Assembly (NCBI RefSeq): GCF_900187885.1
Contig: NZ_FYEK01000028.1
Coordinates: forward strand, 1-64,000
Direction: 5' to 3'
Origin: Thermoflexus hugenholtzii JAD2
GTDB lineage: Bacteria; Chloroflexota; Anaerolineae; Thermoflexales; Thermoflexaceae
Length of the DNA: 64,000 nucleotides
Part shown: piece after piece, positions 36,859 to 41,225 of the stretch
Layout of the letters: the number at the start of each line of letters is the position of its first letter
Position numbering within the stretch: the stretch's first letter is position 1
Position numbers and translations under genes: made by a program
Notes under the pieces: generated by a model
What the model was told of the DNA's origin: nothing
What the model saw: the letters and a program-made list of their open reading frames with translations, nothing else
The model's database searches: none

Positions 36859-36958
36859 AGTTCCGAACAGGCGCGACGTCTGCTGCAGTGGAAGCGTCCT
36901 TGCCCGGGTTGGGATCTTCCGGCGATTCGGTATCCCAGTGTTTTCGAGGAGCGCCGCG

Positions 36959-37894
36959 ATGGGGCACCCGTATCTCACACCGGATGAATGGCTCTCCCGG
37001 CTGGAGCAGCAGGTCCTCTCCGCCTTTCGAGAGCTCCGGGAGTTGTATGAGCAGGAGAGAGCCCGGCGGGAAGAGCTGGAGCGTGCCTACCGGCGGTTGA
37101 AGGATCTGGACGAGCTGAAGACAACCTTCGTGGCCCGCGCGGGCGCGGAGCTCCGCCAGCCCCTGGGGCTGGTGATCGGCTTCCTGGAAGCGGCCCTCGG
37201 CCAGCTTCCATCTTCAGGGATGCCGGACATCGCGGCGATGTTAGAGGGGGCCTTGCGAGGCGCTTATCGGCTGCTGGAATACATCGCTCCTCTCACCGCC
37301 TTTGCGGAGTTACACCGCCAGCCGACGGCTTTTGTGGAGCCTCTTCCGCTGGGCCAGCTGATCCATGATCTGCTCCGGGCGGAGCAGCCGACCCTCGCCG
37401 AGCGTTCGACGGAGATCCGTCTGGATCTGAGCGAGGAGGCGGAGAACACTCGCGTCGATGGACCTTATGGGGCTTACATCCTGCGCACCTTACTGGATTT
37501 CCTTTTCGCCGCTCGTCGAGAGGGAGGCCCTCTGGAGATCCGCGCCCGGATCCGGGAATCCGTCCTGCTGGTAGAACTGGTCGATCCCACTCTCCGCCTC
37601 CCGGCGGAGACGCTGGCCTGGCTGAACGAAGGGGCCGCCGGGATCTCCGGGCCACAACCCGCTCGCCCCCGGGTGGATCCCGCGGTGCTGGGCCTAGCGA
37701 TCACCCGGAGGGCCGCTCAGGCCTTAGGCGGCGATCTCTTCCTCCAGAGCGAGGGGGACCAGGGGATCACCCTGAGCGTCCTGCTCCCGGCCCGCCCCCT
37801 GGGGGTGGAGGATCAAATCGCCCTGCTCAGCCAGGCCCTGGAACGCCTTCCCTCTTCCGAGCCCCAGCGGCCAAGCCCCAGGGTCCCCGAGTAG
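36959..37894 (+). CDS. Histidine-kinase-like protein lacking the phospho-acceptor His
   Basis: 311 residues: a charged coiled coil (about 10-60, ARREELERAYRRLKDLDELK), then a HisKA-like helical pair whose core reads FVARAGAELRQPLGLVIGF, and a degenerate HATPase_c-like domain. In kinases this site is normally S-H-E-L-R-x-P; here it is G-A-E-L-R, so no His to phosphorylate. The N-box Asn is also missing (LRTLLDFLFAARR). It may be a pseudokinase, a dimerisation or sensor partner, or a decayed gene. The ATG at 36959 has GAGGAG 8 nt upstream. Confidence 0.72.
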   Translation: MGHPYLTPDEWLSRLEQQVLSAFRELRELYEQERARREELERAYRRLKDLDELKTTFVARAGAELRQPLGLVIGFLEAALGQLPSSGMPDIAAMLEGALRGAYRLLEYIAPLTAFAELHRQPTAFVEPLPLGQLIHDLLRAEQPTLAERSTEIRLDLSEEAENTRVDGPYGAYILRTLLDFLFAARREGGPLEIRARIRESVLLVELVDPTLRLPAETLAWLNEGAAGISGPQPARPRVDPAVLGLAITRRAAQALGGDLFLQSEGDQGITLSVLLPARPLGVEDQIALLSQALERLPSSEPQRPSPRVPE

Positions 37895-37981: not shown

Positions 37982-39505
37982 TCAGACGCCCATCGGGAGG
38001 GCGGAGGAGCGGAGCGAAGGCGTCTCCGTCTCTACTCGCAGAGCGGGGAGGACCATCAGGGGGCCCAGGCCGCGTTCCAGGGTGATTTGGGCCGACTCCT
38101 CGGGCTGCAGATAGTCCTTGAGCACCTCCACGATCACCTCCGGATCGGCCTCCCCGCAGGTGAACACGTCCACGGCTACGTAGGCGTATTCCGGCCAGGC
38201 GTGGAGGGAGATGTGGGACTCCGCCAGCAGCACCAAGGCGGAGAACCCATCCGGGACGAAGCGGTGGATTTTCATGTTCAGCAGGGTGGCGCCGGCCCGA
38301 CGCACTGCGTGCTCCAGGACCTGCTTCAGCCCGCGCAGGGGCTCCCGGTTCCGGCATTTCCAGAACTCGGCGATGATGTGCCGGCCCAGGGTGAGCTGGG
38401 TGGGGAATGGGGTGGGCGCGGGGGTCATCACCGAGGCAGTGATGGCCATATCCACATCCGGGCTGCGCCACACCTGATCGATGGCGTCCTCGTCCTCATA
38501 AAGCTCCCGCCCTCCCTCGATGACGTAGTCCTCCGGCGGCTGGAACTCCGGCAGCGTCTCCACCCGGAAGAAGGTCGAGCGATACCATGGCGTCCGTGCC
38601 GGGCGGGCGAAGGGCGGCAGATCCGGGATGGGCTGCTCGTCCGGGTCCTCCCAGTTGGCATAGAGACTGAAGTCCGGCAGGATGTGGGTGAAGGTGATGG
38701 CGTGCCGGCTGAGGAGCTCCCGCTGCCACACGTGCCACTTGCCGATGTTGGACTCGATGCGGGTGATGCCGAAGTAGCCCGCATGCCCCTCCCCTTTCCG
38801 CAGGCACATGAAGCCCTTCTCCAGGAAGAGCAGCAGGCCGTGCTCGGTCTCGGTCGGGTCGGTGAGGAAAGTGTCGAAGCGGCCGAGCAGCTCGGTGGGG
38901 AGGCGCTCGGTGAGGCTGCGGCAGTAGACGGTGATGTTCAGGCCGGCCCGGCGGGCGGCCTGTTCGATGAAGTCGCAAAGGCGGCGGTCGATCTCAATCA
39001 CCACGACCGAGCGGGGTAACCCGGTCAGGGCCAGGGCCAGGCTGGCCAGGTCGTCATCGCCCAGCACGATGATGTCTTTGCCCTCCACATCCCCCTGGGC
39101 GACCATGAGGGCGACCCGCCGCATCACCGAGTCGATGGTCTGATAGCCCTGGTCGTAGGCCGCCAGAGGCTCCGGACGGCCCTGGGCCAGCTCCGCGTAG
39201 CGCCGGGTCACTTCCGCGAAGAAGCCCAGGTCCACCCCGGTCCCCCCGCAGGCGGCGCAGCGGATCTCGGGGGCCACCTGAACGCCCAGCTCCCGGGCCA
39301 GGGCCTGGCCGCGGTCCGTTAGATGCAGGCGCTGCCCGTCGAAGGCCAGGAGTCCGTGACGGAGCAGTTGCTGGACGCCCTCCACCACTCGTGGAAAGGG
39401 AAGCCCGGCGGTGCCGGCGGCCTGCCAGGGATCCCCCTCCCGCACGATGGCGCGCAGGAGGCGAGCCAGCTCCGAGCGCCCCAGGGTCAGGATCTCCCCC
39501 GCCAT
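37982..39505 (-). CDS. Fused BpsA (N4-bis(aminopropyl)spermidine synthase)-S-adenosylmethionine decarboxylase
   Basis: A 507-residue fusion. Residues about 1-350 are BpsA-like: an N-terminal winged-helix part, the zinc-like CAACGGTG (83-90), and the catalytic-region GDDD (149-152) in IIVLGDDDLASLALAL. Residues about 371-480 are a bacterial SpeH AdoMet decarboxylase: LGRHIIAEFWKC, then ESHISLHAWPEYAYVAVDVF (starting 429), where Ser433 is the predicted self-cleavage site giving the pyruvoyl cofactor. Decarboxylated AdoMet from one half is the aminopropyl donor of the other, so they may channel. Branched polyamines stabilise nucleic acids in thermophiles. The ATG has a GGAGG site. Confidence 0.82.
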   Translation of the reverse strand: MAGEILTLGRSELARLLRAIVREGDPWQAAGTAGLPFPRVVEGVQQLLRHGLLAFDGQRLHLTDRGQALARELGVQVAPEIRCAACGGTGVDLGFFAEVTRRYAELAQGRPEPLAAYDQGYQTIDSVMRRVALMVAQGDVEGKDIIVLGDDDLASLALALTGLPRSVVVIEIDRRLCDFIEQAARRAGLNITVYCRSLTERLPTELLGRFDTFLTDPTETEHGLLLFLEKGFMCLRKGEGHAGYFGITRIESNIGKWHVWQRELLSRHAITFTHILPDFSLYANWEDPDEQPIPDLPPFARPARTPWYRSTFFRVETLPEFQPPEDYVIEGGRELYEDEDAIDQVWRSPDVDMAITASVMTPAPTPFPTQLTLGRHIIAEFWKCRNREPLRGLKQVLEHAVRRAGATLLNMKIHRFVPDGFSALVLLAESHISLHAWPEYAYVAVDVFTCGEADPEVIVEVLKDYLQPEESAQITLERGLGPLMVLPALRVETETPSLRSSALPMGV

Positions 39506-39526
39506 CGTTCACCTCCTTTCCCCGGA

Positions 39527-39550
39527 ATGTTGACGGCGCCTTCCGGCGCC
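39527..39550. repeat. GGCGCC palindromes near the BpsA-SpeH ribosome binding site
   Basis: Two adjacent GGCGCC blocks in ACGGCGCCTTCCGGCGCCC can pair with each other. They lie about 20-40 nt upstream of the GGAGG site of the fusion gene, where they could form an mRNA structure that hides or exposes the start region. No data test this. Confidence 0.35.
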
Positions 39551-39594
39551 CGGAAGCGGAGACGGCTCCGCACGCACCGTCCCCTTACAAAGCA

Positions 39595-39670
39595 AATAGG
39601 CAGCACGGGTTCCGCACCCGGCATCATCGGAAGTCCCGACGCATGCCCAAAGCCGGAACGGCTGCCTATT
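39595..39670 (-). ncRNA. Structured leader element upstream of the BpsA-SpeH fusion
   Basis: In the minus-strand transcript the ends AATAGGCAGC and GCTGCCTATT pair perfectly (10 bp). Inside, GTTCCG pairs with CGGAAC, GGCAT with ATGCC, and TCGG with CCGA, giving a long, bulged hairpin of about 76 nt. It lies between the promoter and the coding region. It could be a polyamine- or SAM-sensing element, an attenuator or simply a stable leader; I do not match it to a known riboswitch class. Confidence 0.5.
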
Positions 39671-40100: not shown

Positions 40101-41225
40101 CTACCAATTGCGCAGAACAAGAGGCAGGTAAATCTGAAAACCAGGATGGCCGTGATGATCTGGATACAGATCGGGCGCGGAGAGCGCCAGATCGATTCGC
40201 AGCCCACTACTCCATGCCAGGGCTCCGATCAATATCAGCCCCAACAAGATCCCCACAGCCAAACCGTGATCCCGATCCTCCCACCACCTTCGATTCCTCT
40301 CCAGAGTCTCTATCCCCAGCGCCACCATCCCTGAGATCATCCACACCAACACCTGCACTCCACCGTGAAAGGCAAAGAAGTTCGAAGCAGCAGTGATGTA
40401 ACGGGCCTCGGCAGGGGTCAAGAAGATGTGATGTAACAGCGGCAACTCCAGATAGGCCATCGCCGCCCCAGCCAGCCATATCTCCCAACCTCGTATGGGC
40501 GGGGCGTCCCAGAAAGCCCGCCATCGCGCCAGCCCCAGCAACCCTATCCCGCTGCTCAACAGTCCTGCGAGAACCATCCATGCTGCGACCTCCGGCTGGG
40601 CTAACCCCAAACCGGGCAGCTCCACCACTCGCAACCCCAGCAGCAACGGGGTTATCACCATCCCATACCCCAGCCGGGTCAGCCCTCGAGTCGGATCCCA
40701 AGCCATCCCCTTCGCCAGCCATAACCCCACGGCCAGACCAGCCAGGGTCAGACCGGCCACCTCCAGTCCTACCTTTATGGGAAGAGATGGCACACCCCCC
40801 CAGGCCACTATCGGAGGGATGCCCAGACCGAGCGGACTCACCGCTGTCAACCAGACCCCCAGCGCAGAAGGCGCGCTTACGGGGAGAAGGCGGCGCCGGG
40901 CGAAAACACCCCAAGTGCCGTAAAGAAAGAGCATGAAATCCATCACGGCGCCTGCCGCCACCAGCCCGCTCATCCGATAACGGCCTAGCGTTCGCTCATC
41001 CAGGGGGAGCGCTCCCATATGCCCGTAGAGGAAGAGACGAGAGCGGTCTGCATGGGTAAACCACTCCCAGAAAAGAAGCAGGAGCCCCACCGCAATCACC
41101 CCCCCCAGAACCACCGAGGGGAACGTGAACACCGTCCGAATTCGGCTCCGAATCCCCTTCACCAACCTGTATCCCACTCTCGCCGAAAGCATTGTCCTTT
41201 TTTGTTTAAAGCTTACATGATGCAT
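40101..41225 (-). CDS. Multi-pass membrane protein with LPLVLRNW tail (unknown function)
   Basis: A 374-residue protein with about nine to ten hydrophobic segments and no recognised family. After the last membrane helix there is a soluble stretch (DLYPDHHGHPGFQ) and the C-terminal end IYLPLVLRNW. The same kind of ending occurs in the neighbouring propeller protein. The start at 41225 has GGAGTAATTAA; an ATG at 41192 with AAGGA is an alternative. The upstream gap is AT-rich and probably contains a promoter. The nearest genes give no functional clue beyond the shared tail. Confidence 0.6.
   Translation of the reverse strand: MHHVSFKQKRTMLSARVGYRLVKGIRSRIRTVFTFPSVVLGGVIAVGLLLLFWEWFTHADRSRLFLYGHMGALPLDERTLGRYRMSGLVAAGAVMDFMLFLYGTWGVFARRRLLPVSAPSALGVWLTAVSPLGLGIPPIVAWGGVPSLPIKVGLEVAGLTLAGLAVGLWLAKGMAWDPTRGLTRLGYGMVITPLLLGLRVVELPGLGLAQPEVAAWMVLAGLLSSGIGLLGLARWRAFWDAPPIRGWEIWLAGAAMAYLELPLLHHIFLTPAEARYITAASNFFAFHGGVQVLVWMISGMVALGIETLERNRRWWEDRDHGLAVGILLGLILIGALAWSSGLRIDLALSAPDLYPDHHGHPGFQIYLPLVLRNW

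Follow-up and report, generated by a model that had tools for sequence, protein, structure and literature searches.

The stretch of DNA analysed here (the window; 64,000 nucleotides of Thermoflexus hugenholtzii JAD2) carries, on its minus strand, an uninterrupted frame from 39505 to 37982 that encodes a protein of 507 residues [Table 1]. The protein comprises a complete branched-chain polyamine synthase (BpsA), a 30-residue disordered linker and a complete class 1b AdoMet decarboxylase (SpeD/SpeH). Pfam places BpsA_C (PF01861) at residues 98-341 (E 3e-67) and AdoMet_dc (PF02675) at residues 376-479 (E 3e-31; score 108.5, cut-off 25), and the NCBIfam model for adenosylmethionine decarboxylase, TIGR03330, is passed with 112.4 against a cut-off of 75.65. 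With phmmer, residues 13-341 align with T. kodakarensis BpsA (5xnc; 8e-72) and residues 372-480 with T. maritima SpeD (1tlu; 5e-24). AlphaFold models two domains with confidence (mean pLDDT of the whole model 80.5); the top Foldseek entries are BpsA (TMt 0.86), followed by T. maritima SpeD (TMt 0.87, rmsd 1.2). The winged-helix N-terminal part and the BpsA_C domain that are required of BpsA (EC 2.5.1.128) are both present; the first residues of the CAACGG, GDDD and ESH motifs are 83, 149 and 429, respectively. These results bear out the sequence-only reading that preceded this work in its claims that one intact frame of 507 codons carries BpsA-like and SpeH halves, that the former has CAACGG and GDDD, and that the two belong to a shared pathway. 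The neighbouring genes at 40101-41225 and 36938-37894 lack any Pfam match, and the product of the latter looks histidine-kinase-like by eye.

Table 1. Features of the BpsA-SpeD fusion gene and its leader (positions in the window).
Feature	Position	Strand	Basis or remark
BpsA-SpeD fusion gene	37982..39505	minus	507 codons plus stop
N-terminal winged-helix part of BpsA, residues 1-97 (CAACGG 83-88)	39215..39505	minus	phmmer to 5xnc from residue 13; AlphaFold/Foldseek
BpsA catalytic domain, residues 98-341	38483..39214	minus	PF01861; residues mapped on T. kodakarensis BpsA
Disordered linker, residues 342-371, pLDDT <50	38393..38482	minus	AlphaFold; purifying selection
SpeD beta-chain portion, residues 372-429	38219..38392	minus	Pfam, phmmer, T. 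maritima mapping; S422 = T. maritima S55
SpeD alpha-chain portion, residues 430-480	38066..38218	minus	Ser430 predicted pyruvoyl precursor; H435, P438, E439, C450
Low-confidence C-terminal tail, residues about 480-507, less conserved	37985..38065	minus	AlphaFold; conservation
Conserved structured leader, about 165 nt, upstream of the fusion start	39506..39670	minus	candidate cis-regulatory RNA
Shine-Dalgarno AAAGGAGGTGA in invariant ATTCCGGGGAAAGGAGGTGA	39509..39519	minus	ribosome site of the fusion gene
Leader hairpin III, GGCGCC-type, just 5′ of the ribosome site	39535..39550	minus	
Leader hairpin II	39558..39584	minus	conserved within Thermoflexus only
Leader hairpin I, AATAGGCAGC...GCTGCCTATT	39595..39670	minus	kept in Thermoflexus and in G030; without Rfam match

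The search for proteins joining PF01861 to SpeD that the sequence-only reading had proposed did find relatives. Full fusions are present in nine of nine Thermoflexus genomes (86-100% identity) and in G030, a genome of another family (74% identity); six more occur in the genus g270, of a third family (499-523 residues, 45-48% identical over the aligned part), among 396 genomes of the class. The relatives that have names are Thermoflexus species and candidates, and the source genome itself belongs to Thermoflexus. With the fused frame in 16 genomes a frameshift or assembly artefact is ruled out, and the stop or frameshift between the halves about which the earlier reading had cautioned was looked for and is found in none of them. 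Across 400 genomes spread over the phylum, no near-full BpsA_C match was found outside Thermoflexus. Among the matches listed in plasmid records, only the SpeD half is represented, and none covers most of the query. Within Thermoflexus the dN/dS values are 0.07 for BpsA_C, 0.06 for the linker, and 0.09 and 0.04 for the SpeD chains; both halves and the linker are under strong purifying selection.

The unfused arrangement is also found in the class. Five other genomes have a stand-alone BpsA, and in G475 (L091 1031-3921) bpsA, speD and speE are separate neighbours in a row on one strand, plausibly the precursor order of the fusion. In G016 (L087 7910-9417), a stand-alone bpsA overlaps the start of a gene for pyruvoyl-dependent arginine decarboxylase (PF01862). 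The g270 fusion is followed by one stand-alone BpsA gene (two in G612), and at loci L080-L085 the acidic cluster of the stand-alone BpsA is altered (FYFD.E vs ELYDDEE), which, at the level of sequence, suggests split acceptor roles. The upstream gene sampled beside a g270 fusion (G576, 683 residues), considered as a possible SpeA, is DNA polymerase PolX. In the tree of the BpsA half the bacterial fusion clade stands apart from T. kodakarensis and Thermus thermophilus BpsA; the fusions need 2 changes, and one clade is not rejected (p-AU 0.149). In the tree of the SpeD half they group weakly (57% of bootstraps); the fusion may have had a single origin.

In the BpsA half, D150-152, D216, E251, Y282 and Y308 match T. 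kodakarensis BpsA, equivalents of its D225, E259, Y290 and Y316 are present, and mapping indicates that all of its spermidine/dcAdoMet-site and catalytic residues are retained. The acidic tail of BpsA is the aminopropyl carrier, and the C-terminal region governs substrate choice (PMC12979288). Five acidic residues (334 and 337-340) of the Thermoflexus cluster ELYEDED 334-340 match T. kodakarensis BpsA; residue numbers in PMC12979288 are 2 lower than those counted from its printed alignment, and the match was made by the E..DDEE spacing. The cluster is weaker or partly reduced in the G030 and g270 fusions. Fold, GDDD and acidic C-terminal cluster are thus common to the fusion and the BpsA of T. 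kodakarensis and Thermus thermophilus (5xnc, 6j27/6j28). Known BpsA enzymes, however, stand alone and have this cluster as a free C-terminal tail, whereas in the fusion E334 and E337-D340 directly precede the linker, with SpeD beyond it. This internal position could alter catalysis.

In the SpeD half, alignment equates S422, E429, S430, H435, E439 and C450 with T. maritima S55, E62, S63, H68, E72 and C83, respectively, and E429/S430, H435 and C450 are kept in all fusions aligned. Also kept is the proline that tells true AdoMet decarboxylases apart from the arginine decarboxylases derived from SpeD: P438 in HAWPEY is taken to be the conserved proline of Fig. 8 in PMC10407285; P438 and the residue mapping disfavour the SpeD half as an arginine decarboxylase. 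The fusion has in common with the class 1b SpeD/SpeH of T. maritima (1tlu) the fold, the Glu-Ser cleavage site, the H68/C83 equivalents and the proline. It differs in that class 1b SpeD is normally a protein of ~115-150 residues on its own, while the beta chain of the fusion has BpsA at its N terminus.

Since the serine of ESH, Ser430, aligns with T. maritima Ser63, the predicted cleavage site is Glu429/Ser430. The sequence-only reading had placed it at Ser433, wrongly, as this is the second serine of ESHIS; its claim that self-processing would be needed does agree with a class 1b SpeD half that has a Glu-Ser site. The alpha and beta chains of class 1b SpeD fold together as a unit, and in the AlphaFold model the strands flanking the cut (420-427 and 430-437) lie in one domain. 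As BpsA is attached to the beta chain of such a unit, cleavage should not free it: rather than being released, as had been supposed for the N-terminal part, BpsA would stay tethered via the SpeD beta chain.

The leader upstream of the start is highly conserved. For hairpin I, identity is 94-95% between the more distant Thermoflexus members and 78% to G030, where third codon positions in the same comparisons reach about 63% and 48%, respectively, and identity falls sharply just upstream of the hairpin. Moreover, the leader folds better than shuffles (z -2.2). Among the loci examined, the motif precedes the fusion gene in Thermoflexus and G030 only, and not in g270. A search of Rfam with the leader returned no match at E up to 10 beyond a chance Xoo1 (16 bits vs 70 needed), and none reached gathering over the whole window. 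No pair has changed on both sides in the two genera, and since only these two were compared, the leader is regarded as a candidate RNA element. It resembles the spermidine riboswitch, a SAM-I variant (PMC10853860), in being a structured leader before polyamine genes, and differs from it in that, at that threshold, Rfam returns neither SAM-I nor any other riboswitch for it.

Of the 16 genomes with the fusion, 15, the source genome among them, have no other SpeD, and G612 has a second one. Thermoflexus has one separate SpeE (spermidine synthase; NF002010 just above cut-off), and a canonical SpeE is present in three g270 genomes (G460, G545 and G576). None was found in G030, where the only match is a 522-residue protein, weak and partial over the synthase domain; judged by gene content, BpsA may be the only aminopropyltransferase, and the only dcAdoMet user, of this genome. 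The source genome has three genes of the arginase/agmatinase family, and searches with PF02784, PF01276 and PF01862 found in it none of the known ornithine, arginine or carboxynorspermidine decarboxylase families; PF02784 is absent from all nine Thermoflexus genomes and from G030. Spermidine/putrescine transporter genes have been reported for T. hugenholtzii (PMC8129789), and hence putrescine, agmatine or spermidine may be imported. The habitat of Thermoflexus is geothermal springs (PMC8129789), and branched polyamines occur in geothermal settings (PMC12979288).

Retention of the residues discussed above, scores above cut-off for both families, purifying selection and the position as sole SpeD together support the reading of the fusion as a bifunctional enzyme that combines local dcAdoMet supply with coupled expression for branched-polyamine synthesis, to which we assign a probability of roughly 0.75. 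The cleavage, the activities, the product, the local supply and the benefit of fusing are what we infer from these data. Counting against this reading are the failure of the family searches to find a decarboxylase that could lead to spermidine, the internal position of the acidic cluster and its weaker form in the G030 and g270 fusions, and the missing canonical SpeE of G030. Self-cleavage of the SpeD half at Glu429/Ser430 would yield two chains: a 429-residue beta chain, made up of BpsA, the linker and SpeD beta, and a 78-residue alpha chain with a pyruvoyl start. This half would decarboxylate AdoMet to dcAdoMet. The BpsA half would load the aminopropyl group from dcAdoMet onto the acidic cluster 334-340 and move it to the inner nitrogen of spermidine, yielding N4-branched polyamines. 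Fusion would raise dcAdoMet near BpsA and keep both activities co-expressed at a set ratio, and excess dcAdoMet would leave the fusion and feed the separate SpeE. A more elaborate scheme, rather doubtful at present, has the acidic segment, tethered between the site that makes dcAdoMet and the site of transfer, acting as a delivery arm, and the leader RNA sensing a polyamine or AdoMet product and setting translation of the bifunctional enzyme.

The sequence-only reading suggested donor channelling and matched stoichiometry; channelling as the main point is not supported. If channelling were obligate, dcAdoMet would pass from SpeD to BpsA without release, possibly via the acidic carrier segment adjoining the linker. 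The location of E334 and E337-D340 immediately before the linker to SpeD agrees with this, as do a linker as constrained as the folded domains and the possible role of BpsA as sole dcAdoMet user in G030. Yet the linker is predicted to be disordered, the stand-alone BpsA copies (one or two) beside the g270 fusion also need dcAdoMet, and Thermoflexus, G460, G545 and G576 combine a canonical SpeE with the fusion as sole AdoMet decarboxylase. Because this SpeE needs dcAdoMet, part of the donor must escape in Thermoflexus, and the strict form of channelling is improbable there. The identity of the acceptor is a different matter. The BpsA half might use agmatine, putrescine or a longer polyamine, so that the product would not be N4-bis(aminopropyl)spermidine: the bacterial fusion clade is separate from T. 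kodakarensis and Thermus thermophilus BpsA, the C-terminal region that sets substrate choice (PMC12979288) has more sequence after it here, and G030, lacking a canonical SpeE, may have a BpsA that acts on another acceptor. Retention of every spermidine-binding and catalytic residue of T. kodakarensis BpsA, and of the five-residue acidic pattern in Thermoflexus, makes such a change unlikely.

Two further explanations concern the SpeD half and are both very improbable. It could have become an arginine or ornithine decarboxylase that gives agmatine or putrescine instead of dcAdoMet, a change known in Chloroflexota (PMC10407285) and one that would suit a genome in which PF02784, PF01276 and PF01862 were not found. 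However, the genome has no other SpeD to make the dcAdoMet on which its SpeE and BpsA depend, and this half keeps the diagnostic proline and passes the TIGR03330 equivalog cut-off. Alternatively, the activities could be made separately, with an internal start or proteolysis of the disordered linker freeing SpeD and the fused frame being incidental. Thermoflexus and G030 share a conserved Met360 immediately ahead of the SpeD domain. It has no ribosome site, which speaks against an internal start there, while the main start has an 11-nt one; the g270 fusions lack a Met at this position, and the linker is conserved.

No BpsA-SpeD fusion was found in the open full-text literature that was searched, and it is probably new to the literature. 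It joins a donor-making enzyme to a branched-polyamine synthase in a thermophile lineage, offers a single-protein system for testing local dcAdoMet supply and a BpsA working without a free carrier tail, and marks bacterial lineages whose branched polyamines have apparently been unexamined so far; to this is added an undescribed candidate leader RNA on a polyamine gene. SpeD-SpeDC fusions (PMC10407285) likewise hold a self-cleaving SpeD with AdoMet decarboxylase activity within a larger chain, as predicted here, although there the partner, instead of BpsA, is an ornithine decarboxylase that derives from SpeD and carries a second pyruvoyl group. Another parallel is provided by the fusions of Ca. 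Pelagibacter, a delta-proteobacterium and Krumholzibacteria, in which AdoMet decarboxylase and aminopropyltransferase also share one chain, both halves are active, and whose AdoMet decarboxylase-SpeE type is ancestral to animal spermine synthase (PMC11107197, PMC12803844). In these the SpeD half is N-terminal and the transferase belongs to the SpeE family, whereas here an unrelated transferase, BpsA, is N-terminal, SpeD is C-terminal and a different product is expected. Judged from its domains, the BpsA-SpeD fusion is therefore a protein that would work like the Pelagibacter and animal spermine synthase type without being a member of it, its order being reversed and its transferase drawn from the BpsA family.
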